DNA from: Bacteroidetes bacterium GWB2_32_14
GTDB taxonomy: Bacteria > Bacteroidota > Bacteroidia > Bacteroidales > UBA12077
Direction: 5' to 3'
Length of the DNA stretch: 52,240 nucleotides
Assembly: GCA_001768235.1 (NCBI GenBank)
Contig: MENK01000010.1
Coordinates: forward strand, 5,540 to 57,779
Part shown: positions 2-8,511 of the stretch, piece after piece
Layout of the letters: each line of letters opens with the position of its first letter
Numbering within the stretch: the stretch's first letter is position 1
Position numbers and translations under genes: made by a program
The notes under the pieces: generated by a model
Seen by the model: the letters and a program-made list of their open reading frames with translations, nothing else
The model's database searches: none
Told to the model about the DNA's origin: nothing

Positions 2-1201
2 AGCAGAAAAATTCATAGAAAATTATTAGAACTAATAGATATTTCGCAGGTAAGTTGCAGAAATATTAACAAACCTAAAACAGATATTGAAAAATCATTA
101 ACTGAAATTTGGTCAGAAGTGTTGAATATTTCTCAAGAAGAAATAAGTGTAACGGCTAACTTTTTTGCCATAGGGGGGCATTCATTAAAAGCTTCGTCTT
201 GTATCAATAAGTTAAAAAAATATTTTGATGTAAATATTTCATTAATTGAAATATTTAAAAATCCAACAATTATTCAATTGGCTGCTTTTATTCAAATGAA
301 TGAATCAAAAAAAATTATAGAAGATGATAATTTAGTATTGTTGAAAGAAGGCGATGTTAATGCGACAAATATATTCCTGATACATGATGCCGGCGGAGAA
401 GTGGATGGTTATATTGAATTTTGCAAACAAGCTAATGATAGAATCAATTATTGGGGAATTAGAGCAGGAAGTCTTAAAAAATATGAGCCCGTTAATATTA
501 CTGTAGAACAACTTGCTAATAGATATATTAAATGCTTAAAAAAAGTACAAAAACATGGAGAATATAATATAGCAGGATGGTCCTTAGGGGGAACAATTGC
601 TTTTGAAATGGTTAGGCAATTGGAACAAGAAAAGAAAAAGGTTCGATTTCTTGGAATTATAGATTCTATGCCACCAAGTATAAATGAAGATATTAAAGTG
701 AAAGAATTTTCAGTCGAATCCGAATTAAGCTGGATTCGAAATTATTTTGATGATGTTGAAATCATAACAGGATTTAATATCAAAATAAACCTTGATGATT
801 TCTGGTTTAATGTAATTAATTATTTAAAAAATGTAGATGGGGCAAGCGAGATAATAAAGGGAGAAATTATGAAAAATATTGGGTTTGATATTAAAGAATA
901 CCAAAAAGTGTCAATTGAAGAATTGGTAAAATATATGAATTTTACACGAAGCTTAGGTAGAGCATGTAATTATTATATCCCGGGTAATGTTATTAATTCA
1001 CAAATAAATTATTTTGCAGCAGGATGTTCTAAAAGCAGAATAATTGTTGCCTGGCAAGGCTTTTCTTCGAAAAATATGATCGTAAAAGAAGTAGAAGGAA
1101 ATCACTTTTCAATATTTACTCAACCGAATGTTAAGAGTCTATATAAGAAGTTTTTTGAATGTTTTATTAGCCGTGAAAATATGGTCTTATTTGAAAATTA
1201 G
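2..1201 (+). CDS. NRPS C-terminal fragment: carrier protein plus type I thioesterase (partial)
   Basis: This is the end of a nonribosomal peptide synthetase. The frame is open to the left edge of the window, so the 5' part lies outside and no start codon is visible. A peptidyl carrier domain comes first; its FFAIGGHSLKA motif places the phosphopantetheine serine at codon 182-184. A thioesterase domain follows, with the nucleophile motif GWSLGG (Ser codon 581-583), a downstream IDSMPP segment that may hold the acid, and a C-terminal GNHFSIF histidine (codon 1103-1105). A C-terminal thioesterase is what releases or cyclises the finished peptide in this family, so this should be the last module of the assembly line. 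The PPTase at 12043 could activate the carrier and the type II thioesterase at 10505 could edit it. The peptide cannot be predicted because no adenylation domain is visible. Confidence 0.93.
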   Translation, partial: SRKIHRKLLELIDISQVSCRNINKPKTDIEKSLTEIWSEVLNISQEEISVTANFFAIGGHSLKASSCINKLKKYFDVNISLIEIFKNPTIIQLAAFIQMNESKKIIEDDNLVLLKEGDVNATNIFLIHDAGGEVDGYIEFCKQANDRINYWGIRAGSLKKYEPVNITVEQLANRYIKCLKKVQKHGEYNIAGWSLGGTIAFEMVRQLEQEKKKVRFLGIIDSMPPSINEDIKVKEFSVESELSWIRNYFDDVEIITGFNIKINLDDFWFNVINYLKNVDGASEIIKGEIMKNIGFDIKEYQKVSIEELVKYMNFTRSLGRACNYYIPGNVINSQINYFAAGCSKSRIIVAWQGFSSKNMIVKEVEGNHFSIFTQPNVKSLYKKFFECFISRENMVLFEN

Positions 1202-1256
1202 TATCTAATAAAGCACGAATAACGAATTTGTATAAATATAATACCTGGTATAAATT

Positions 1257-4200
1257 ATGAAAAAAAAAATGTATCAATATGTGTTTGTCGTAATATCTGC
1301 ATTTTTAATATCAAGCGGTTCATTATTTGCTCAAGCAAATATAGGTCAGGATTCATATGAGGATATATATGAAAAAATTGAATCCGTTCTGAAAAAAGCA
1401 GATATTCCCGGATTATCTTTCACGCTTGTTGATAAAAATAATGTTTATATAAAGAGTTTTGGATATGCAGATATTGAGAATAAAATTCCTGTTACTTCAA
1501 AGACTTTGTTTGAATTAGGTTCTACTTCAAAGGCTTTTACTGCATTGGCAATACTGCAAATGGAAAAAGATAGCTTAATTAGACTGGATGACTTCGTGTC
1601 TTATTACCTTCCCTGGTTTAAACTGATATATGATGGAGCTGAAGTTCAAATAACCATAAAACAATTATTACATCATACTTCAGGAGTTCCAATGGAAGCA
1701 ATTTCAGGAATCCCCCAGGGAGAGAGTGATGATATGCTTGAAAAAACTGTTCGTATAATTAATGAATTGAAATTAAAAAGACTGCCCGGTAAAAAATACG
1801 AGTATTCAACAATCAACTACGATATTCTGGGATTAATAATAGAGAAGGTTAGCAATCTTTCATTCGAAGAGTATTTAAGAGAACATATTTTTGCCCCTCT
1901 AGAGTTAGAATCTACTTCTGTAGGAAAACCTGTAAATAATTATTTCGCGAAGGGGTATAAAATAAGTTTTTTTTCACCAAGGGAGTATTATGCTCCAAAA
2001 TACAGGGGAAATAACCCTGCTGGATACGTAATATCAAATGGAGATGATATGGCTAAATGGTTAAAATATCAACTCTCCATTGATACAAATAGTTTTGATG
2101 GCATAATAAATAAATCTCATCTTCCCGATTTAACTGTTACTCCCCATGGATTAGCATCTTATGCTTCAGGTTGGATGGTGGAGCCCTATGGTGACATTAA
2201 AATATACCACGAGGGTTTAAACCCTAATTTTTCTTCATTTGTTGGATTCCTTCCTGATAAAAAAATAGGTATTGCAATATTAGCAAACTCTAATAGTAAC
2301 TATGCTGCATATTTAGGAAATATTATCCTGAAAACTTTAAATAATGATGAAATTTCAGAAATCTCGGAACCTGAAAATAGTCTTGATAAGATTTTTTCAC
2401 TGATTTCTATTATTCTTATTGTATTTCTAACGGGAATTTTTGTTTTGTTAGCATGGATAGTAAAAGGAATTATAAAAAAAGAAAGACAGTTTAAGGTACC
2501 TGATTCCAAGTCTGTTTTTAAACTTATAGGATATTTACTTCTTACTTTTCCCTTTATTTATGGAATATATTTACTCCCTGGAGCATTAATGAATTTTTCA
2601 TGGAAAGCTGCTGTTGTTTGGGCACCGAATAGCTACTATATAGGATGTGTTTTGTTCATATGCGCAGTACTTGGAACCTGGATTTTAAGCATAATATCTG
2701 CTATAATTCCTACGAGAAGTCAATACTACAGATCGTTACCCACGATTGTTGTGCTTAGTATAATGTCTGGATTAGCTAATATGATCATAATTTTATTATT
2801 AATTAATGCCATAGGAAGTGAAGCAAAACTCGCTTACCTTTTATATTATTTTATCTTAGTATTGGTATTCTATATTTCAAGCAGAAAGGTTGTTCAGGTA
2901 AAATTAATAAATATATCCTTGTCTGTTGTTTATGAATTACGCATGAAATTAATAAACAAGATATTTTTATCATCATTTCAGAAGTTTGAGAAAATAGATA
3001 ACGGACGTGTGTATGCTACATTAAATCAAGATACAGCAACAATATCTAATTCTGTAAATATAGTAATAAGCCTGATAACTAATATTATAACAATAGTTGG
3101 AGTTTTTGTTTATTTGGGAACAATATCATTAACTGCAACAGTAATAATTCTTACGGTTATAGCTTGCATAGCAATTTTGTATTTTGTGGTTAGTAAAAGA
3201 ACAATGATTCTGTTTGAGCAAGTTAGAGATACAGCAAATATATTTTCGGGCTTGATTGATGGTTTGTTATATGGGTTTAAAGAGTTAAGCTTATCGGGTT
3301 TGAAGAAAAATGAATACACCAATGAAATAGAAGCTTCTTGCTCAGAATTAAAAAATAAATCCGGGTTAGCATTCTTAAAATTTGTAAATTCATTTTTGAT
3401 AGGTGAAACTCTTCTCATTATGGTTTTGGGTACTGTAAGTTTCCTTATTCCATTTTTATTTCCCGAAATACCAAATTATAAATTACTTGGATTTATTATG
3501 ATTGTATTGTACCTGATAGGGCCTATAAACGGGGTCTTAAATTCTATACCTAATATTTTGCAGATTAAAGTGTCGTGGAAAAGAATAAAAGGCTTTATCG
3601 ATGAAATAAACCCGGATTTGAGAATAACAGACATTTTGAAAGTAAAAAATACAAGTTTAATTGTTAAAAACCTATCAGTTCATGGATTAGTTTTTGAGTA
3701 TAAAAATAGTGAAGAAGAAAGTCCTTTTAAGGTTGGCCCAATTAATTTAAATGTTAATAGCGGAGAAATTCTATTTGTTATCGGAGGAAATGGTAGTGGT
3801 AAATCTACATTAGCAAACCTGCTAACAGGCTTATATACTTCCGATGAAGGTTTTATAGAGATTAATAACAAAAGAGTCAATAATAATGAACTTGGCGATT
3901 ATTTTTCAACAATATTCAGCAATAATCACATTTTTAAGAAGCTTTATGGTGTTAATACAGATAATAAAAAAGAAGAACAGGATTATTTACTCAAATTATT
4001 GCGATTAGAAGAAAAGGTTAGTATTAATAATGGTTCATTTTCAACCATTGATTTATCTAACGGGCAACGTAAAAGATTATCATTAATGAAGTGCTTTTTA
4101 GAGAATTCGCAGATATTCCTTTTCGATGAATGGGCTGCAGATCAGGACCCGGAATACAAAAAAATATTTTATAGAAAATTACTCCCCGAGATGAAAAAAC

Positions 4201-4322
4201 AAGGTAAAATAATTATTGCAATTACCCACGATGATAATTATTTTGATGTTGCTGATCGAATAATAAAAATGAATAATGGTGAAATGAAGGAGTTGATTCA
4301 TCAGGAGTATATAAATTTATAG
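1257..4322 (+). CDS. ClbP/ZmaM-like periplasmic serine peptidase fused to a cyclic-peptide (PvdE/SyrD) ABC exporter
   Basis: A 1021-aa fusion. Residues 1-25 look like a signal peptide ending in LFAQA. Residues 35-360 form a serine beta-lactamase/penicillin-binding-like domain with S89-T-S-K92 (SxxK), Y183-S-T (in place of Y-x-N) and H318-E-G320 (the KTG position). About three membrane helices follow (381-405, 422-445, 462-485), then a SyrD/PvdE-type transporter: further membrane segments from 495, Walker A GGNGSGKST (843-851), signature LSNGQ (933-937), Walker B with the family-typical DEWAADQDP (957-965) and H-loop His991. In colibactin and zwittermicin systems a peptidase of this type removes an N-acyl-D-Asn prodrug group in the periplasm, and ZmaM carries the peptidase and exporter in one chain. 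That role is inferred here; the domain calls are clear. The gene starts 55 bp after the NRPS stop and is probably co-transcribed with it. Confidence 0.9.
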   Translation: MKKKMYQYVFVVISAFLISSGSLFAQANIGQDSYEDIYEKIESVLKKADIPGLSFTLVDKNNVYIKSFGYADIENKIPVTSKTLFELGSTSKAFTALAILQMEKDSLIRLDDFVSYYLPWFKLIYDGAEVQITIKQLLHHTSGVPMEAISGIPQGESDDMLEKTVRIINELKLKRLPGKKYEYSTINYDILGLIIEKVSNLSFEEYLREHIFAPLELESTSVGKPVNNYFAKGYKISFFSPREYYAPKYRGNNPAGYVISNGDDMAKWLKYQLSIDTNSFDGIINKSHLPDLTVTPHGLASYASGWMVEPYGDIKIYHEGLNPNFSSFVGFLPDKKIGIAILANSNSNYAAYLGNIILKTLNNDEISEISEPENSLDKIFSLISIILIVFLTGIFVLLAWIVKGIIKKERQFKVPDSKSVFKLIGYLLLTFPFIYGIYLLPGALMNFSWKAAVVWAPNSYYIGCVLFICAVLGTWILSIISAIIPTRSQYYRSLPTIVVLSIMSGLANMIIILLLINAIGSEAKLAYLLYYFILVLVFYISSRKVVQVKLINISLSVVYELRMKLINKIFLSSFQKFEKIDNGRVYATLNQDTATISNSVNIVISLITNIITIVGVFVYLGTISLTATVIILTVIACIAILYFVVSKRTMILFEQVRDTANIFSGLIDGLLYGFKELSLSGLKKNEYTNEIEASCSELKNKSGLAFLKFVNSFLIGETLLIMVLGTVSFLIPFLFPEIPNYKLLGFIMIVLYLIGPINGVLNSIPNILQIKVSWKRIKGFIDEINPDLRITDILKVKNTSLIVKNLSVHGLVFEYKNSEEESPFKVGPINLNVNSGEILFVIGGNGSGKSTLANLLTGLYTSDEGFIEINNKRVNNNELGDYFSTIFSNNHIFKKLYGVNTDNKKEEQDYLLKLLRLEEKVSINNGSFSTIDLSNGQRKRLSLMKCFLENSQIFLFDEWAADQDPEYKKIFYRKLLPEMKKQGKIIIAITHDDNYFDVADRIIKMNNGEMKELIHQEYINL

Positions 4323-4363
4323 TGTGATATTGTATAATTTGATTCTAAAGTAAAGTTTATACT

Positions 4364-5452
4364 ATGGATAGTTATAAAAATGTAGAAACAACAGCAAACC
4401 CAGACAATTTGGGTGTTAAAATTGAAAGGCCTGTAGTGATATCTGGCCCGTGTAGTGCAGAATCCAGAGAACAGGTTATTAATACGGCGTTACAACTTCA
4501 TAAATTGGGAATTAAAATTTTTCGGGCAGGGATATGGAAACCTCGCTCTAGACCTGGGAATTATATGGGTAGTGGCAGTGTTGGTCTGGAATGGTTAAAA
4601 GAAGTAAAGCAGCTTACCGGTATGTTGACAGCTGTTGAAGTGGCAACAAAAGACCATGTGGAGGAAGCTTTAAAAAATGATGTTGACATTTTATGGATAG
4701 GAGCCAGAACAACTGTAAACCCATTTGCTGTTCAGGAATTAGCAGAAAGTATGAAAGGTACTAATAAGCAAGTTTTAATAAAAAATCCAATTAATCCTGA
4801 TTTAGATTTATGGATTGGAGCAATCGAAAGACTTGTTAAAGTTGGAATTTCTAATATTGGGGTTATTCACAGAGGATTTTCTTTATATAAAAACAAAAAA
4901 TATAGAAACGAACCTTTATGGCAAATACCTTTAGATCTTAAGGAGTGTTTTCCTAATTTATTTATGATATGTGATCCTAGTCATATTTGTGGAAATACAG
5001 AACTTATTTATGAAGTTTCACAAAAGGCTTTAGACCTTAACTTTGATGGACTAATGATAGAGTCTCATATTAATCCATCCAAGGCATTAAGTGATGCTAA
5101 ACAGCAGATTACTCCATTAGAACTCGATACACTTTTAAAAAAATTAAGGATTCGTAAGCAGAATTTGGATTTCAGCTATTCTCTCGATAATTTAAGAAAA
5201 ATAATAGATGAAAAAGATTTTGAGCTAATTAGAATTTTATCTGATCGAATGAACGTTGTAAAAAAAATCGGAGAAATAAAAAAAGAAAATAATATTTTAA
5301 TTTTACAGAGAGACAGATGGGAAAGTATTTTACATAACATAAAACTTTTTAGCGAAGAATTTGATGTCAACACGGAATTTTTAACGAATGTTTTTAAATT
5401 AATTCATCAAGAATCAATTAATCAGCAGTCTATTTTAATGAATAAAGATTAA
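4364..5452 (+). CDS. bifunctional 3-deoxy-7-phosphoheptulonate synthase / chorismate mutase (type II)
   Basis: Makes DAHP from phosphoenolpyruvate and erythrose 4-phosphate, and converts chorismate to prephenate. Residues 22-262 are the DAHP synthase domain, with GPCSAES (28-34), WKPRSRPG (58-65), IKNP (139-142), IHRGFS (168-173) and DPSHICG (204-210). Residues 272-350 are an AroQ-type chorismate mutase helix bundle with R278, D282, R295, K306 and R318 in the expected pattern. The synthase-first fusion is common in Bacteroidota. The gene sits 41 bp after the exporter and 12 bp before the next gene, inside the NRPS run and away from other aromatic-pathway genes. It may therefore be a dedicated copy that feeds aromatic building blocks to the peptide, but it could equally be the only housekeeping copy; the window cannot tell. 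Confidence 0.93.
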   Translation: MDSYKNVETTANPDNLGVKIERPVVISGPCSAESREQVINTALQLHKLGIKIFRAGIWKPRSRPGNYMGSGSVGLEWLKEVKQLTGMLTAVEVATKDHVEEALKNDVDILWIGARTTVNPFAVQELAESMKGTNKQVLIKNPINPDLDLWIGAIERLVKVGISNIGVIHRGFSLYKNKKYRNEPLWQIPLDLKECFPNLFMICDPSHICGNTELIYEVSQKALDLNFDGLMIESHINPSKALSDAKQQITPLELDTLLKKLRIRKQNLDFSYSLDNLRKIIDEKDFELIRILSDRMNVVKKIGEIKKENNILILQRDRWESILHNIKLFSEEFDVNTEFLTNVFKLIHQESINQQSILMNKD

Positions 5453-5464
5453 TGTAATTATAAA

Positions 5465-6172
5465 ATGCATCCTGTTGAATTAAAGCCTGTATTTCTGTTT
5501 GCTGATAGTCAATTCCTGTTTTATTGGAACGAGTCAGGGTTGTTTTTAGATAAAATCAAATATTTTTTGCCTAAGGAGATTAATGGTGATGAAATAAAAG
5601 CAGCATATATTGGAGCTTCAAATGGAGATGATCCGCAGTTTTATGAAATATTTGAGATAGCAATGCAGCAAATTGAAATTAGGAATTGCCGGATGATTAA
5701 ATCCAATCCTGATAAAGATGATAATGAATTTCTGAAAAGAGCTGATATAATATTGCTGGCCGGAGGCAATACTGAAAAAGGCTGGGATGTTATAAAACGC
5801 AATGGCTGGGATGATATAATTACCTGCAAGTATTTTACAGGTGCTATTCTGATAGGAATATCCGCAGGAGCTATTCAATTGGGGGCAAAAGGATTCCAAG
5901 AAAGCAATGATGAAAAAATAAAGGGATTCAATACTTTACAATTAGTCCCATTTATAATTGATGTACATGCAGATGATAATTGGCTTAATCTAATTAAGCG
6001 AGTTGAGTCTGAGAAAGGTCAATTTAAAGGGTATGGAATTCCATATGGCGCAGGAATTATTTATTATCCCGATATGTCATTAGAAACTGTTCAGTTTTCT
6101 TGTATTGAAATAATTAAAAATGGGGAAAATACATTAAAATCAAAAGTTTTACTTTCATCAAGCTTGTATTAA
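5465..6172 (+). CDS. peptidase S51-like protein (cyanophycinase / PepE superfamily)
   Basis: A 235-aa cytoplasmic protein with no signal peptide. The segment LLAGGNTEKGWDVI (97-110) followed by GISAGAIQLG (131-140) is the oxyanion and nucleophile-elbow signature of the S51 family, with Ser133 as the likely nucleophile. IDVHADD (165-171) supplies a plausible catalytic His168. Members include cyanophycinase, which cleaves beta-Asp-Arg, and alpha-aspartyl dipeptidase PepE. The length fits PepE-like enzymes, but overall similarity to either looks low. It is only 12 bp downstream of the DAHP synthase gene and so probably in the NRPS operon. A role in processing or detoxifying the peptide inside the cell is an inference from position. 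The substrate is unknown. Confidence 0.72.
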   Translation: MHPVELKPVFLFADSQFLFYWNESGLFLDKIKYFLPKEINGDEIKAAYIGASNGDDPQFYEIFEIAMQQIEIRNCRMIKSNPDKDDNEFLKRADIILLAGGNTEKGWDVIKRNGWDDIITCKYFTGAILIGISAGAIQLGAKGFQESNDEKIKGFNTLQLVPFIIDVHADDNWLNLIKRVESEKGQFKGYGIPYGAGIIYYPDMSLETVQFSCIEIIKNGENTLKSKVLLSSSLY

Positions 6173-6546
6173 GTAAATATTAAATATGAGTCATGTGGCG
6201 TAAGTTATTGATATTCATCTATTAATATAGATCGAAAAGCCTGATTAAATTTCAGAATTATAAAAACTATTGCTGGAAATATTGAAGAGACGGAAAGACA
6301 ATAGAAATTTATCTTATCAGTTTTAAATACAAAATTAAGATAAATTATTGGGGCTCTTGGCAACCATAATTTATGGATGTTTCCCGGTTAAATCACGAAA
6401 AGTTTAAAAGGAATTGAAAAATATAGTTGGTTAGTGTTAATATTCCAGGAGTTGTTACAAAAAAATGAATAATAAACTTGGGTAATGAATTTAGGTTACA
6501 GACAGAAAAATAAGAAAACAAATAAAATTAGTAAAGAAAACGTAAT
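6173..6546. other. 374-bp non-coding gap before htpG
   Basis: No open frame with recognisable similarity was found on either strand. The most regular feature is a perfect inverted repeat of AATTTATCTT (6306-6315) and AAGATAAATT (6337-6346) around a 21-nt spacer. It could be a protein-binding site or a weak hairpin, or chance in such AT-rich DNA. No CIRCE heat-shock operator and no clear TAnnTTTG promoter box was seen. This is the longest gap in the NRPS region, so htpG probably has its own promoter here. Confidence 0.5.
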
Positions 6547-8511
6547 ATGTCCCAAAAAACAGGAAGTAAAAAAGTTTGTACTTTTCAAGCTGAAACAAAG
6601 GAGTTGTTGAATTTAATGATTAACTCTTTATACACACACAGAGAGATATTTTTAAGAGAATTAATTTCAAACGCTTCTGATGCTATAGATAAAATTCATT
6701 TTCAATCTTTAACCGATCATGAATTATTAGGTGATGATGTGGAACTTAAGATTGAAATAGAAGTAGATAAGCAGAATAAGACGCTTATAATTTCTGATAA
6801 TGGAATTGGGATGACTTATGATGAAGTAATAGAAAATATTGGAACTATTGCTAAATCAGGGACAAAAGCATTTGCCGGGAGATTAAAAGAGAGTGATAAA
6901 ATAGATTTAATAGGCAAGTTTGGAGTTGGTTTTTATTCATCTTTTATGGTTGCCAAAAATGTTGAAATTATAACACGATCAGCAAAAGCGGAAAAAGGAG
7001 TAAAATGGGTTTCAGAAGGAGATGGAAGCTATACTATTGAAGAATTTGATACAAATACAAGAGGCACAAAAATTACTTTATTTTTGCGAGATGATGCAAC
7101 CGATTCATCGAATCCGGAAGAAGATTTCTCCAATCAATATACAATCCAAAATTTAATAAAAAAATATTCGAATTATATCAGTTACCCTATTCACATGGAT
7201 TTCTACAGGGAAGAAACTCCGCGTGATAAAGATGGAAAAACAATAGAAGGTGCTGAACCGGAAACAATAATTGATAATAAGGTACTGAATTCTATCACTC
7301 CAATTTGGAAGAAAGATAAGAAAGAAATAACTAATGATGAATACTTCCAGTTTTATAAACATCATTTCCATGATTGGAACGAATTTGCCGATGTTATTCA
7401 TTTGAATTTGGAGGGAAAGATCGAATTTACAGCCTTGCTATTTATTCCGTCAAAAGCATCTTCTGATTTATATGACAGAGATTTTTCAAAAGGAATTCAT
7501 CTGTATTCAAATAATGTCTTTATAATGAATGATTGTAAAGATATTTTACCCGAACACCTGAGATTTGTTCGCGGATTGTTGGATTCTCCTGATTTTTCTT
7601 TAAATATTTCAAGGGAGATTTTGCAACATGATGCACAGCTCAAAGTTATTGGCAAAACCCTTGAAAAAAAAATTATTGAAGCCTTAAAAAAACTTCTAAA
7701 GGAGAATAGGGAAAAGTATGAAGAGATTTGGCCGGAATTTGGGAAAGCTTTAAAAGGAGGAATTTATATGGAGTATAAAAATAAGGAAAAGCTTGAAGAT
7801 TTGTTGTTATTTTATTCATCAGGCAATGATAAAATGACTACTTTAAATGAATATATTGAGCGTATGCCTGAAGGTCAGAAAGAGATTTATTATGCTGCAG
7901 CAAAAGATATTAATACAATCAAAAGAATGCCTCAACTAGAGATTTTTAAAGAAAAAAATATTGATGTATTATATTTCGTGGATAAGATAGATGAATTTTT
8001 GACTCAAAATTTAGATAAATATAAGGATATTAAACTTCAATCAGTTACAAGAGAGGATTTTAACTTGGATGGAGTGCTTAAAAAAAATGAAAATATTGAA
8101 CCAAATGAGAAAGCAGAAGATGATAAAAATATAGAGTATAAGGATTTACTTGATGCAATAAAAAAACAACTTGATGGTAAAGTATCAGATGTTAAAATGA
8201 GTAAACGACTGAAATCAAGCCCCGTGTGTTTTGTCAATTCCAATTCTGGTGCTTCATTCAATATGGAGCAGTTACTTAAAGGAGTGAACCAGTTTGCACC
8301 AAAGGCGACAAAAATATTAGAAATCAATCCGAAACATTCAATATTTCCCATAATTGAAAAGGTGTATAAAAACCGAAATGCCAACAATGAATTAAAAAAC
8401 ATAAGCGAAATTCTTTATAACCAAGCTTTATTAATTGAAGGATTTGAATTAGAAAACCCTGTAGATTTCTCTAATTCACTCTGCGAACTCATAACAAAAG
8501 CTTACAACTAA
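6547..8511 (+). CDS. htpG: molecular chaperone HtpG (Hsp90 family)
   Basis: Cytosolic ATP-dependent Hsp90 chaperone of 654 aa, slightly longer than E. coli HtpG. The N-terminal GHKL ATPase shows LISNASDAIDK (about 39-49), DNGIGM (about 88-93) and GKFGVGFYSSFMV (about 122-134). The middle-domain segment HLRFVRGLLDSPDFSLNISR and a C-terminal dimerisation region are complete. It lies between the NRPS-linked genes and the small-protein trio, all on the same strand. HtpG is known to be needed for colibactin, yersiniabactin and albicidin production in Proteobacteria, so its place in an NRPS locus may be functional; that is inference. An internal AAAAGGAGG followed by an in-frame ATG (7768) would give a C-terminal fragment if it were used. 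Confidence 0.98.
   Translation: MSQKTGSKKVCTFQAETKELLNLMINSLYTHREIFLRELISNASDAIDKIHFQSLTDHELLGDDVELKIEIEVDKQNKTLIISDNGIGMTYDEVIENIGTIAKSGTKAFAGRLKESDKIDLIGKFGVGFYSSFMVAKNVEIITRSAKAEKGVKWVSEGDGSYTIEEFDTNTRGTKITLFLRDDATDSSNPEEDFSNQYTIQNLIKKYSNYISYPIHMDFYREETPRDKDGKTIEGAEPETIIDNKVLNSITPIWKKDKKEITNDEYFQFYKHHFHDWNEFADVIHLNLEGKIEFTALLFIPSKASSDLYDRDFSKGIHLYSNNVFIMNDCKDILPEHLRFVRGLLDSPDFSLNISREILQHDAQLKVIGKTLEKKIIEALKKLLKENREKYEEIWPEFGKALKGGIYMEYKNKEKLEDLLLFYSSGNDKMTTLNEYIERMPEGQKEIYYAAAKDINTIKRMPQLEIFKEKNIDVLYFVDKIDEFLTQNLDKYKDIKLQSVTREDFNLDGVLKKNENIEPNEKAEDDKNIEYKDLLDAIKKQLDGKVSDVKMSKRLKSSPVCFVNSNSGASFNMEQLLKGVNQFAPKATKILEINPKHSIFPIIEKVYKNRNANNELKNISEILYNQALLIEGFELENPVDFSNSLCELITKAYN

Follow-up and report, generated by a model that had tools for sequence, protein, structure and literature searches.

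Does the gene that follows the last nonribosomal peptide synthetase (NRPS) module of this cluster encode an enzyme that unmasks a peptide while exporting it? The window, that is, the whole stretch of 52,240 nucleotides from Bacteroidetes bacterium GWB2_32_14 analysed here, corresponds to C10:5540-57779 of a 36-contig genome, in which contig C10 starts inside an NRPS. An open reading frame with an ATG start (1257..4322, forward strand) encodes a 1021 aa peptidase-exporter fusion, which an earlier examination of the letters alone (the sequence-only reading) had compared with ClbP of colibactin and ZmaM of zwittermicin. That observation is real, and its interpretation as a candidate prodrug peptidase-exporter is supported by the domain matches and alignments below. 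With a probability of about 0.88, an N-acyl-D-asparagine (N-acyl-D-Asn) cap would be built by an NRPS, the masked compound exported, and the mask cut off outside the cytoplasm by the fusion.

Domain architecture of the fusion

The protein was compared with Pfam, NCBIfam and PDB sequences, and its hydropathy segments were read by eye where they overlapped. The S12 peptidase model PF00144 matched aa 41-348 (208 bits, cut-off 27) and the ABC model PF00005 aa 828-960 (88 bits, cut-off 25), and the cyclic peptide exporter model TIGR01194, the PvdE/SyrD family, spanned aa 495-1010 (338 bits, curated cut-off 286). Full-length ClbP (PDB 7mdc) aligned with aa 41-461, including the membrane domain (E 1.9e-48). 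These family matches are far above chance. The catalytic residues are intact, with S89-T-S-K92 as the SxxK motif and Y183 as the catalytic tyrosine. Three mid-chain helices were placed at approximately aa 379-397, 423-441 and 462-480, and six exporter helices between aa 497 and 761.

An S12 SxxK peptidase, three helices and a PvdE/SyrD-type exporter in one chain, as the sequence-only reading had described, were all recovered by the domain, helix and exporter searches, and the placement of the fusion behind the last NRPS module agrees with a frame for a carrier (T) and a thioesterase that ends 55 bases upstream. According to PMC4234257, citing Reimer et al. 2011, type I prodrug-activating peptidases have a signal peptide, a peptidase and three helices, and type II have nine helices and a presumably cytoplasmic ABC domain. 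The fusion has the type II layout, a single chain that runs from the peptidase through nine helices to a C-terminal ABC ATPase. The likeness to ClbP and ZmaM held on both counts, since ClbP aligns through its membrane domain and the domain order is that published for type II.

Substrate pocket of the peptidase

Relatives were sought in the genomes of 84,980 species by a scan for six short peptide patterns, all taken from a single protein; for this reason the scan catches close relatives only. It returned seven loci, five of them full-length fusions: Bacteroidetes GWF2_33_16 (76% identity to the fusion of the window), Bacteroidales PL23b_bin.85 (65%), F. jejuense (47%), Candidatus Aminicenantes Ww63 (46%) and Clostridium zeae (44%). 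The other two match the peptidase part only (26%). Pocket residues were compared among the resulting six fusions and seven other S12 proteins (FLP, four from the genome of the window and two from other species).

All six fusions carry the S12 triad of SxxK and tyrosine, and the residue identical to that of ClbP at E92, S95, K98, Y186, K240, F243, N331, P451, W460, W466 and P468, of which the last four align with P441, W449, W455 and P457 of the window. The equivalent of N331 (N322 in the window) was kept in 6/6 fusions and in 0/7 comparison proteins; that of E92 (E86) was also found in two of the seven. ClbP position 188 is Thr in five fusions (T185 in the window) and Asn in one, and position 257 is Asn in all six (N252).

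These positions were read against PMC9889268, in which N331 is strict in prodrug peptidases, 188 is Ser or Thr and 257 His or Asn; N331 reads the D-Asn amide and E92 orients N331. There, ClbP activity is lost in N331A and W466A and kept in H257A, and S188N still cleaves D-Asn (PMC9889268). The FLP-like signature of Asn at 188 without N331, as in the compared S12 proteins, is absent from the window, which has Thr and Asn at these positions. The pocket, for which the sequence-only reading had named esterases and DD-peptidases as the contrary outcome, is ClbP-like at the D-Asn-selective positions and unlike FLP or the six other S12 proteins, so that a match to the D-Asn pocket of ClbP is supported at the level of aligned residues. 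A stretch of ZmaM, decoded from primers in PMC9889270, equals TLFELGSTSKAFTALA of the window at 15/15 positions, the engineered serine aside.

First NRPS of the cluster

A large cluster of NRPS and polyketide synthase (PKS) genes lies at C1:302434-379564. The first 66 bases of C10 are identical to the final 66 of C1, and the overlap is in frame; in the segments of C1 and C10 that were read, 21-mers sampled from this overlap occurred a single time per segment. From the start of the first NRPS to the end of the fusion the joined cluster measures approximately 87 kb (77 kb on C1 and 9.9 kb on C10, minus the overlap), and the first NRPS ends approximately 77 kb ahead of the fusion.

The first NRPS begins with a domain resembling a fatty-acyl-AMP ligase (FAAL), followed by carrier, condensation (C), adenylation (A), carrier and epimerisation (E) domains. 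Its FAAL-like domain was matched by 12 PDB sequences, including a fatty acyl-adenylate ligase and FadD32, with McyG best (312 bits). The last domain was matched at 233-273 bits by ten PDB sequences from tyrocidine, gramicidin S and bacitracin synthetases and PvdL, and next by surfactin synthetase at 50 bits. The parts of those proteins that were matched are presumably E domains, and the last domain is read as a predicted E domain. The A-domain code was obtained by motif spacing as DLTKIGEVGK, with the last K taken as given; DLTKxGEVGK is read here as Asn, not Asp. D-Asn loading upstream, on which the sequence-only reading had made its proposal depend, was located in this protein, which combines the Asn-type code with the E domain and is reached via the in-frame overlap. 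The first NRPS would be the builder of the N-acyl-D-Asn cap, with Asn as predicted substrate, and the acyl group would come from the FAAL fused to it. In PMC12283262, DLTKIGEVGK is treated under Asp/Asn and also fits a beta-cyano-alanine moiety.

Directly before this FAAL-Asn-E gene, an antiterminator of the UpxY family is encoded at C1:301887-302405 (138.7 bits, cut-off 100), which suggests processive antitermination of the long cluster.

Distribution and co-occurrence

The fusion is rare. It was detected in 3/39 related genomes by genome search, and, with the two best candidates per genome scored, in 1/395 genomes sampled from the phylum (that of the window), 2/393 from the order (its own and one relative) and 1/398 from the phylum to which C. 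zeae belongs (the genome of C. zeae). In the genus, three of 20 genomes contain the fusion, and the same three contain the FAAL-Asn-E gene and the S51 peptidase gene described below.

The sequence-only reading had also asked for homologues with the same fusion beside NRPS genes. Each of the five other full-length fusions comes from a genome that also has an Asn-E NRPS module, both being on the same contig in two of the five, and E motifs were seen in all of these modules. One contig of F. jejuense carries both the FAAL-Asn-E gene and, approximately 51 kb away, the fusion. In C. zeae, 28 bases separate the fusion from a preceding C-A-T-E gene that has the same code and lacks a FAAL. For Aminicenantes, one Asn-E module turned up at the end of a contig, with no FAAL match next to it. 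The pairing of fusion and Asn-E module recurs in F. jejuense and C. zeae, and less securely in the Aminicenantes metagenome-assembled genome.

Plasmid records were searched with the whole fusion (77 matches) and with its peptidase part (1578 matches), and none covered 80% of the query; the best 40 of the 77 were exporters and the best 30 of the 1578 were S12 enzymes, some of them unannotated. Full ZmaM was not found in the plasmid record searches, the only source searched for it.

Proposed mechanism and alternative explanations

At its start, the assembly line has a fatty-acyl-AMP ligase fused to a carrier, followed by C-A-T-E with an Asn-type code. From this order, a fatty-acyl-D-Asn cap would be built at the N-terminus, later NRPS/PKS modules would add the payload, and the compound would stay masked in the cytoplasm. 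The six-helix ABC part, judged by its family and its predicted topology, would carry the masked compound over the inner membrane. The periplasmic peptidase, given its ClbP-like pocket, would cut after D-Asn, yielding acyl-D-Asn and the active compound with a free amine outside the cytoplasm. The expected benefit would be self-protection, as in the analogous cases of colibactin, zwittermicin, xenocoumacin and amicoumacin.

Several findings weigh against this reading, the first of them in the peptidase. The lysine that in ClbP braces E92, K235, is replaced in all six fusions (F, P, L, M, M and M; Phe in the window), and the one relative with Asn at 188 (L035) has a state found family-wide. FLP exceeds ClbP as PDB match both by sequence (191 against 170 bits) and by profile (281 against 261), and a small tree separates ClbP and the fusions from FLP without firm support (70/62). 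Being the top match by sequence score, FLP would favour an S12 enzyme of the FLP/DD-peptidase or esterase kind, with a role in protecting the cell wall or in trimming a different bond, and with the exporter shipping a lipopeptide that keeps its acyl-D-Asn; lipid-retaining lipopeptides are common. The aligned FLP chain, however, lacks a membrane domain and has Leu at the N331 position, whereas the six fusions keep N331, E92 and W466; N331 is missing from the six other S12 proteins as well, and every fusion-bearing genome has an Asn-E module. We consider such an enzyme very unlikely.

In the assembly line, the junction of C1 and C10 depends on the overlap of 66 bases, and the NCBIfam fatty acyl-AMP ligase model scored 427 bits on the first NRPS, under its cut-off of 600. 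Ten of the 49 A-like domains read in nine stretches (FAALs included) begin with DLTK, and such codes occur also without a detected E domain. The FAAL-like opening, shared with PvdL, and an exporter matching TIGR01194, the PvdE/SyrD family, would also suit a pyoverdine-like route, in which a PvdE-type protein exports a lipopeptide begun by a FAAL and a periplasmic enzyme such as PvdQ takes off the fatty acid alone, with D-Asn staying on the product. PvdQ, however, is an Ntn hydrolase and not an S12 enzyme, and a deacylase acting on the lipid alone would not need the conserved residues that read the D-Asn side chain, which makes this route highly improbable. A penicillin-binding-protein-type thioesterase releasing or cyclising the peptide is barely credible: S12-related thioesterases do sit beside NRPS genes, but this NRPS has its own thioesterase (window 2-1201), the signal-like and membrane helices would place the peptidase in the periplasm, and the ClbP-type pocket and membrane tryptophans are present.

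The last group of contrary findings concerns the relatives. Two relatives of the genus and the Aminicenantes genome have the Asn-E module on another contig than the fusion, and co-occurrence in the latter says little because that genome has 54 NRPS-like matches. In F. jejuense the code of the FAAL gene is DLTKIGEIGK and a second Asn-E module is present. Removal of an N-acyl-D-Asn mask by the fusion stays the preferred reading, at the probability given above.

Neighbouring genes and payload of the cluster

The coordinates of the features are collected in Table 1. Upstream of its carrier-thioesterase end, the last NRPS (C10:1718-5557) comprises half a C domain and two A domains, then a run of 14 N (C10:5526-5539). 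The two A domains (C10:2969 and C10:4613) follow in succession, with no carrier called between them. Four NRPS genes (C1:327501, 349492 and 359929; C10:1757) start with the second part of a condensation domain only, the profile being matched from approximately position 158-195 on; these starts are possibly a docking or chain-transfer device.

Table 1. Position of the fusion, its domains and the neighbouring features (window coordinates unless a contig is named).
Feature	Position	Strand	Basis and remarks
Type II prodrug-activating peptidase-exporter fusion (ClbP/ZmaM-like), predicted	1257..4322	+	families, alignment, residue table
Signal-peptide-like N-terminal helix, aa 9-27	1281..1337	+	hydropathy scan
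S12 serine peptidase domain, aa 41-348; S89, K92, Y183; pocket E86, T185, N252, N322	1377..2300	+	PF00144, ClbP 7mdc alignment, residue table
Three ClbP-like transmembrane helices, aa 379-480	2391..2696	+	hydropathy scan, ClbP alignment
Six-helix exporter membrane domain, aa 497-761	2745..3539	+	TIGR01194, hydropathy scan
ABC ATPase core, aa 828-960; Walker A GGNGSGKS, signature LSNGQ, Walker B LFDEW	3738..4136	+	PF00005, sequence/alignment
End of last NRPS: carrier (T) and thioesterase	2..1201	+	PF00550 aa 33-97, PF00975 aa 123-285
DAHP synthase-chorismate mutase	4364..5452	+	PF00793 and PF01817; 41 bases after the fusion
S51-family peptidase, GISAGA serine motif	5465..6172	+	PF03575, 57.5 bits
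First NRPS, 2145 aa, FAAL-T-C-A-T-E	C1:302434-308871		domain matches

In the Aminicenantes locus, too, the fusion is followed by a DAHP synthase-chorismate mutase gene (L037:8270-9418), and a further copy of similar length is present elsewhere in both genomes (on C15 in that of the window). The S51-family peptidase gave weak matches to PDB sequences (best E 0.021) and is a putative enzyme of possible cleanup or protective function; a gene for HtpG lies downstream of it. Promoter and terminator scans of approximately 900-6700 gave no more hits than shuffled expectation (31 promoter-like against 32.8; 2 terminator-like against 2.4), and statements on operons are for this reason based on spacing.

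Two pairs of genes for a B12-type radical SAM protein and a U32-family protein were observed at C1:324456-327352 and 344097-349449, with a further B12-binding gene matching a radical SAM family in the same cluster stretches. Speculatively, we suppose that the DAHP synthase-chorismate mutase and the U32-family genes of the cluster might supply prephenate for oxygen-free hydroxylation.

Five adjacent genes at C1:337888-342636 (L032:16888-19580, L031:89-2133) fit the roles of RifL, RifN, RifJ, RifK and RifM in the 3-amino-5-hydroxybenzoate (AHBA) pathway, as listed in PMC8788734. The best PDB match of the aminotransferase was AHBA synthase 1b9h (332 bits; next protein 256), and the best NCBIfam match of the phosphatase was AHBA_synth_RP, under its cut-off; RifG-like and RifH-like genes were not seen among the five. 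The AHBA genes suggest an unusual payload.

To compare clusters, 24 cluster and flanking proteins were searched by tblastn against stretches of the relatives. The fusion was found in each lineage compared, and UpxY and FAAL-Asn-E genes occurred together in the genus relatives G003 and G012 and in F. jejuense, the UpxY match in G003 covering only 59 residues, where that stretch ends. The AHBA genes were not found in the stretches of the relatives, a provisional result, as these cover the clusters incompletely. In the related clusters, the ends that would cap and uncap the product are shared and the middles differ. We give even odds to a portable cap-and-uncap kit of Bacteroidota, with UpxY and FAAL-T-C-Asn-T-E at one end, the peptidase-exporter (joined by S51 in this genus) at the other and varied payloads between, which in this genome would make a lipid-D-Asn-masked, AHBA-based hybrid. 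No report of such a kit combined with an AHBA payload was found among the papers listed by literature search.

Comparison with known systems

In PMC9889268, prodrug peptidases are mostly from Firmicutes, with some from Proteobacteria and Actinobacteria, and NRPS neighbours occur only in network clusters with known prodrug peptidases. The words prodrug, asparagine and colibactin are absent from the main text of a survey of Bacteroidetes natural products (PMC9248904), and no report of a prodrug peptidase-exporter system in Bacteroidota was found in the titles and abstract openings of the open-access papers listed by literature search. The fusion would extend the known prodrug strategy beyond the phyla that the main survey covers, with a FAAL-started cap; the N-acyl-D-Asn strategy would reach Bacteroidota and possibly Aminicenantes. 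The fusion could serve as a marker for clusters whose product stays masked until export, and the published inhibitors of ClbP and ZmaM (PMC9889270) could directly reveal such masked products, F. jejuense being a named strain.

Among the known systems, FLP (PDB 4gdn) has the best PDB sequence score for the peptidase domain of the window; its chain has no membrane domain and, unlike the window, it has Leu, Asp and Glu at the positions of N331, 257 and 240. The pyoverdine system (PvdL, PvdE) shares the FAAL start and the PvdE-family exporter, and its PvdQ is an unrelated hydrolase that removes the fatty acid alone. The type I peptidases ClbP (colibactin), XcnG (xenocoumacin) and AmiB (amicoumacin) have, as in the window, an S12 peptidase, three helices and the D-Asn pocket, but no fused exporter, and ClbP has His257 and K235 where the fusion has Asn and Phe. 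The type II proteins ZmaM (zwittermicin) and PamJ (paenilamicin) have the same domain order as the fusion (PMC9889268 and PMC4234257), and the catalytic stretch of ZmaM agrees with that of the window. The window differs from both in its host, a member of Bacteroidota, in a predicted cap NRPS that starts with a fused FAAL, and in its payload genes.

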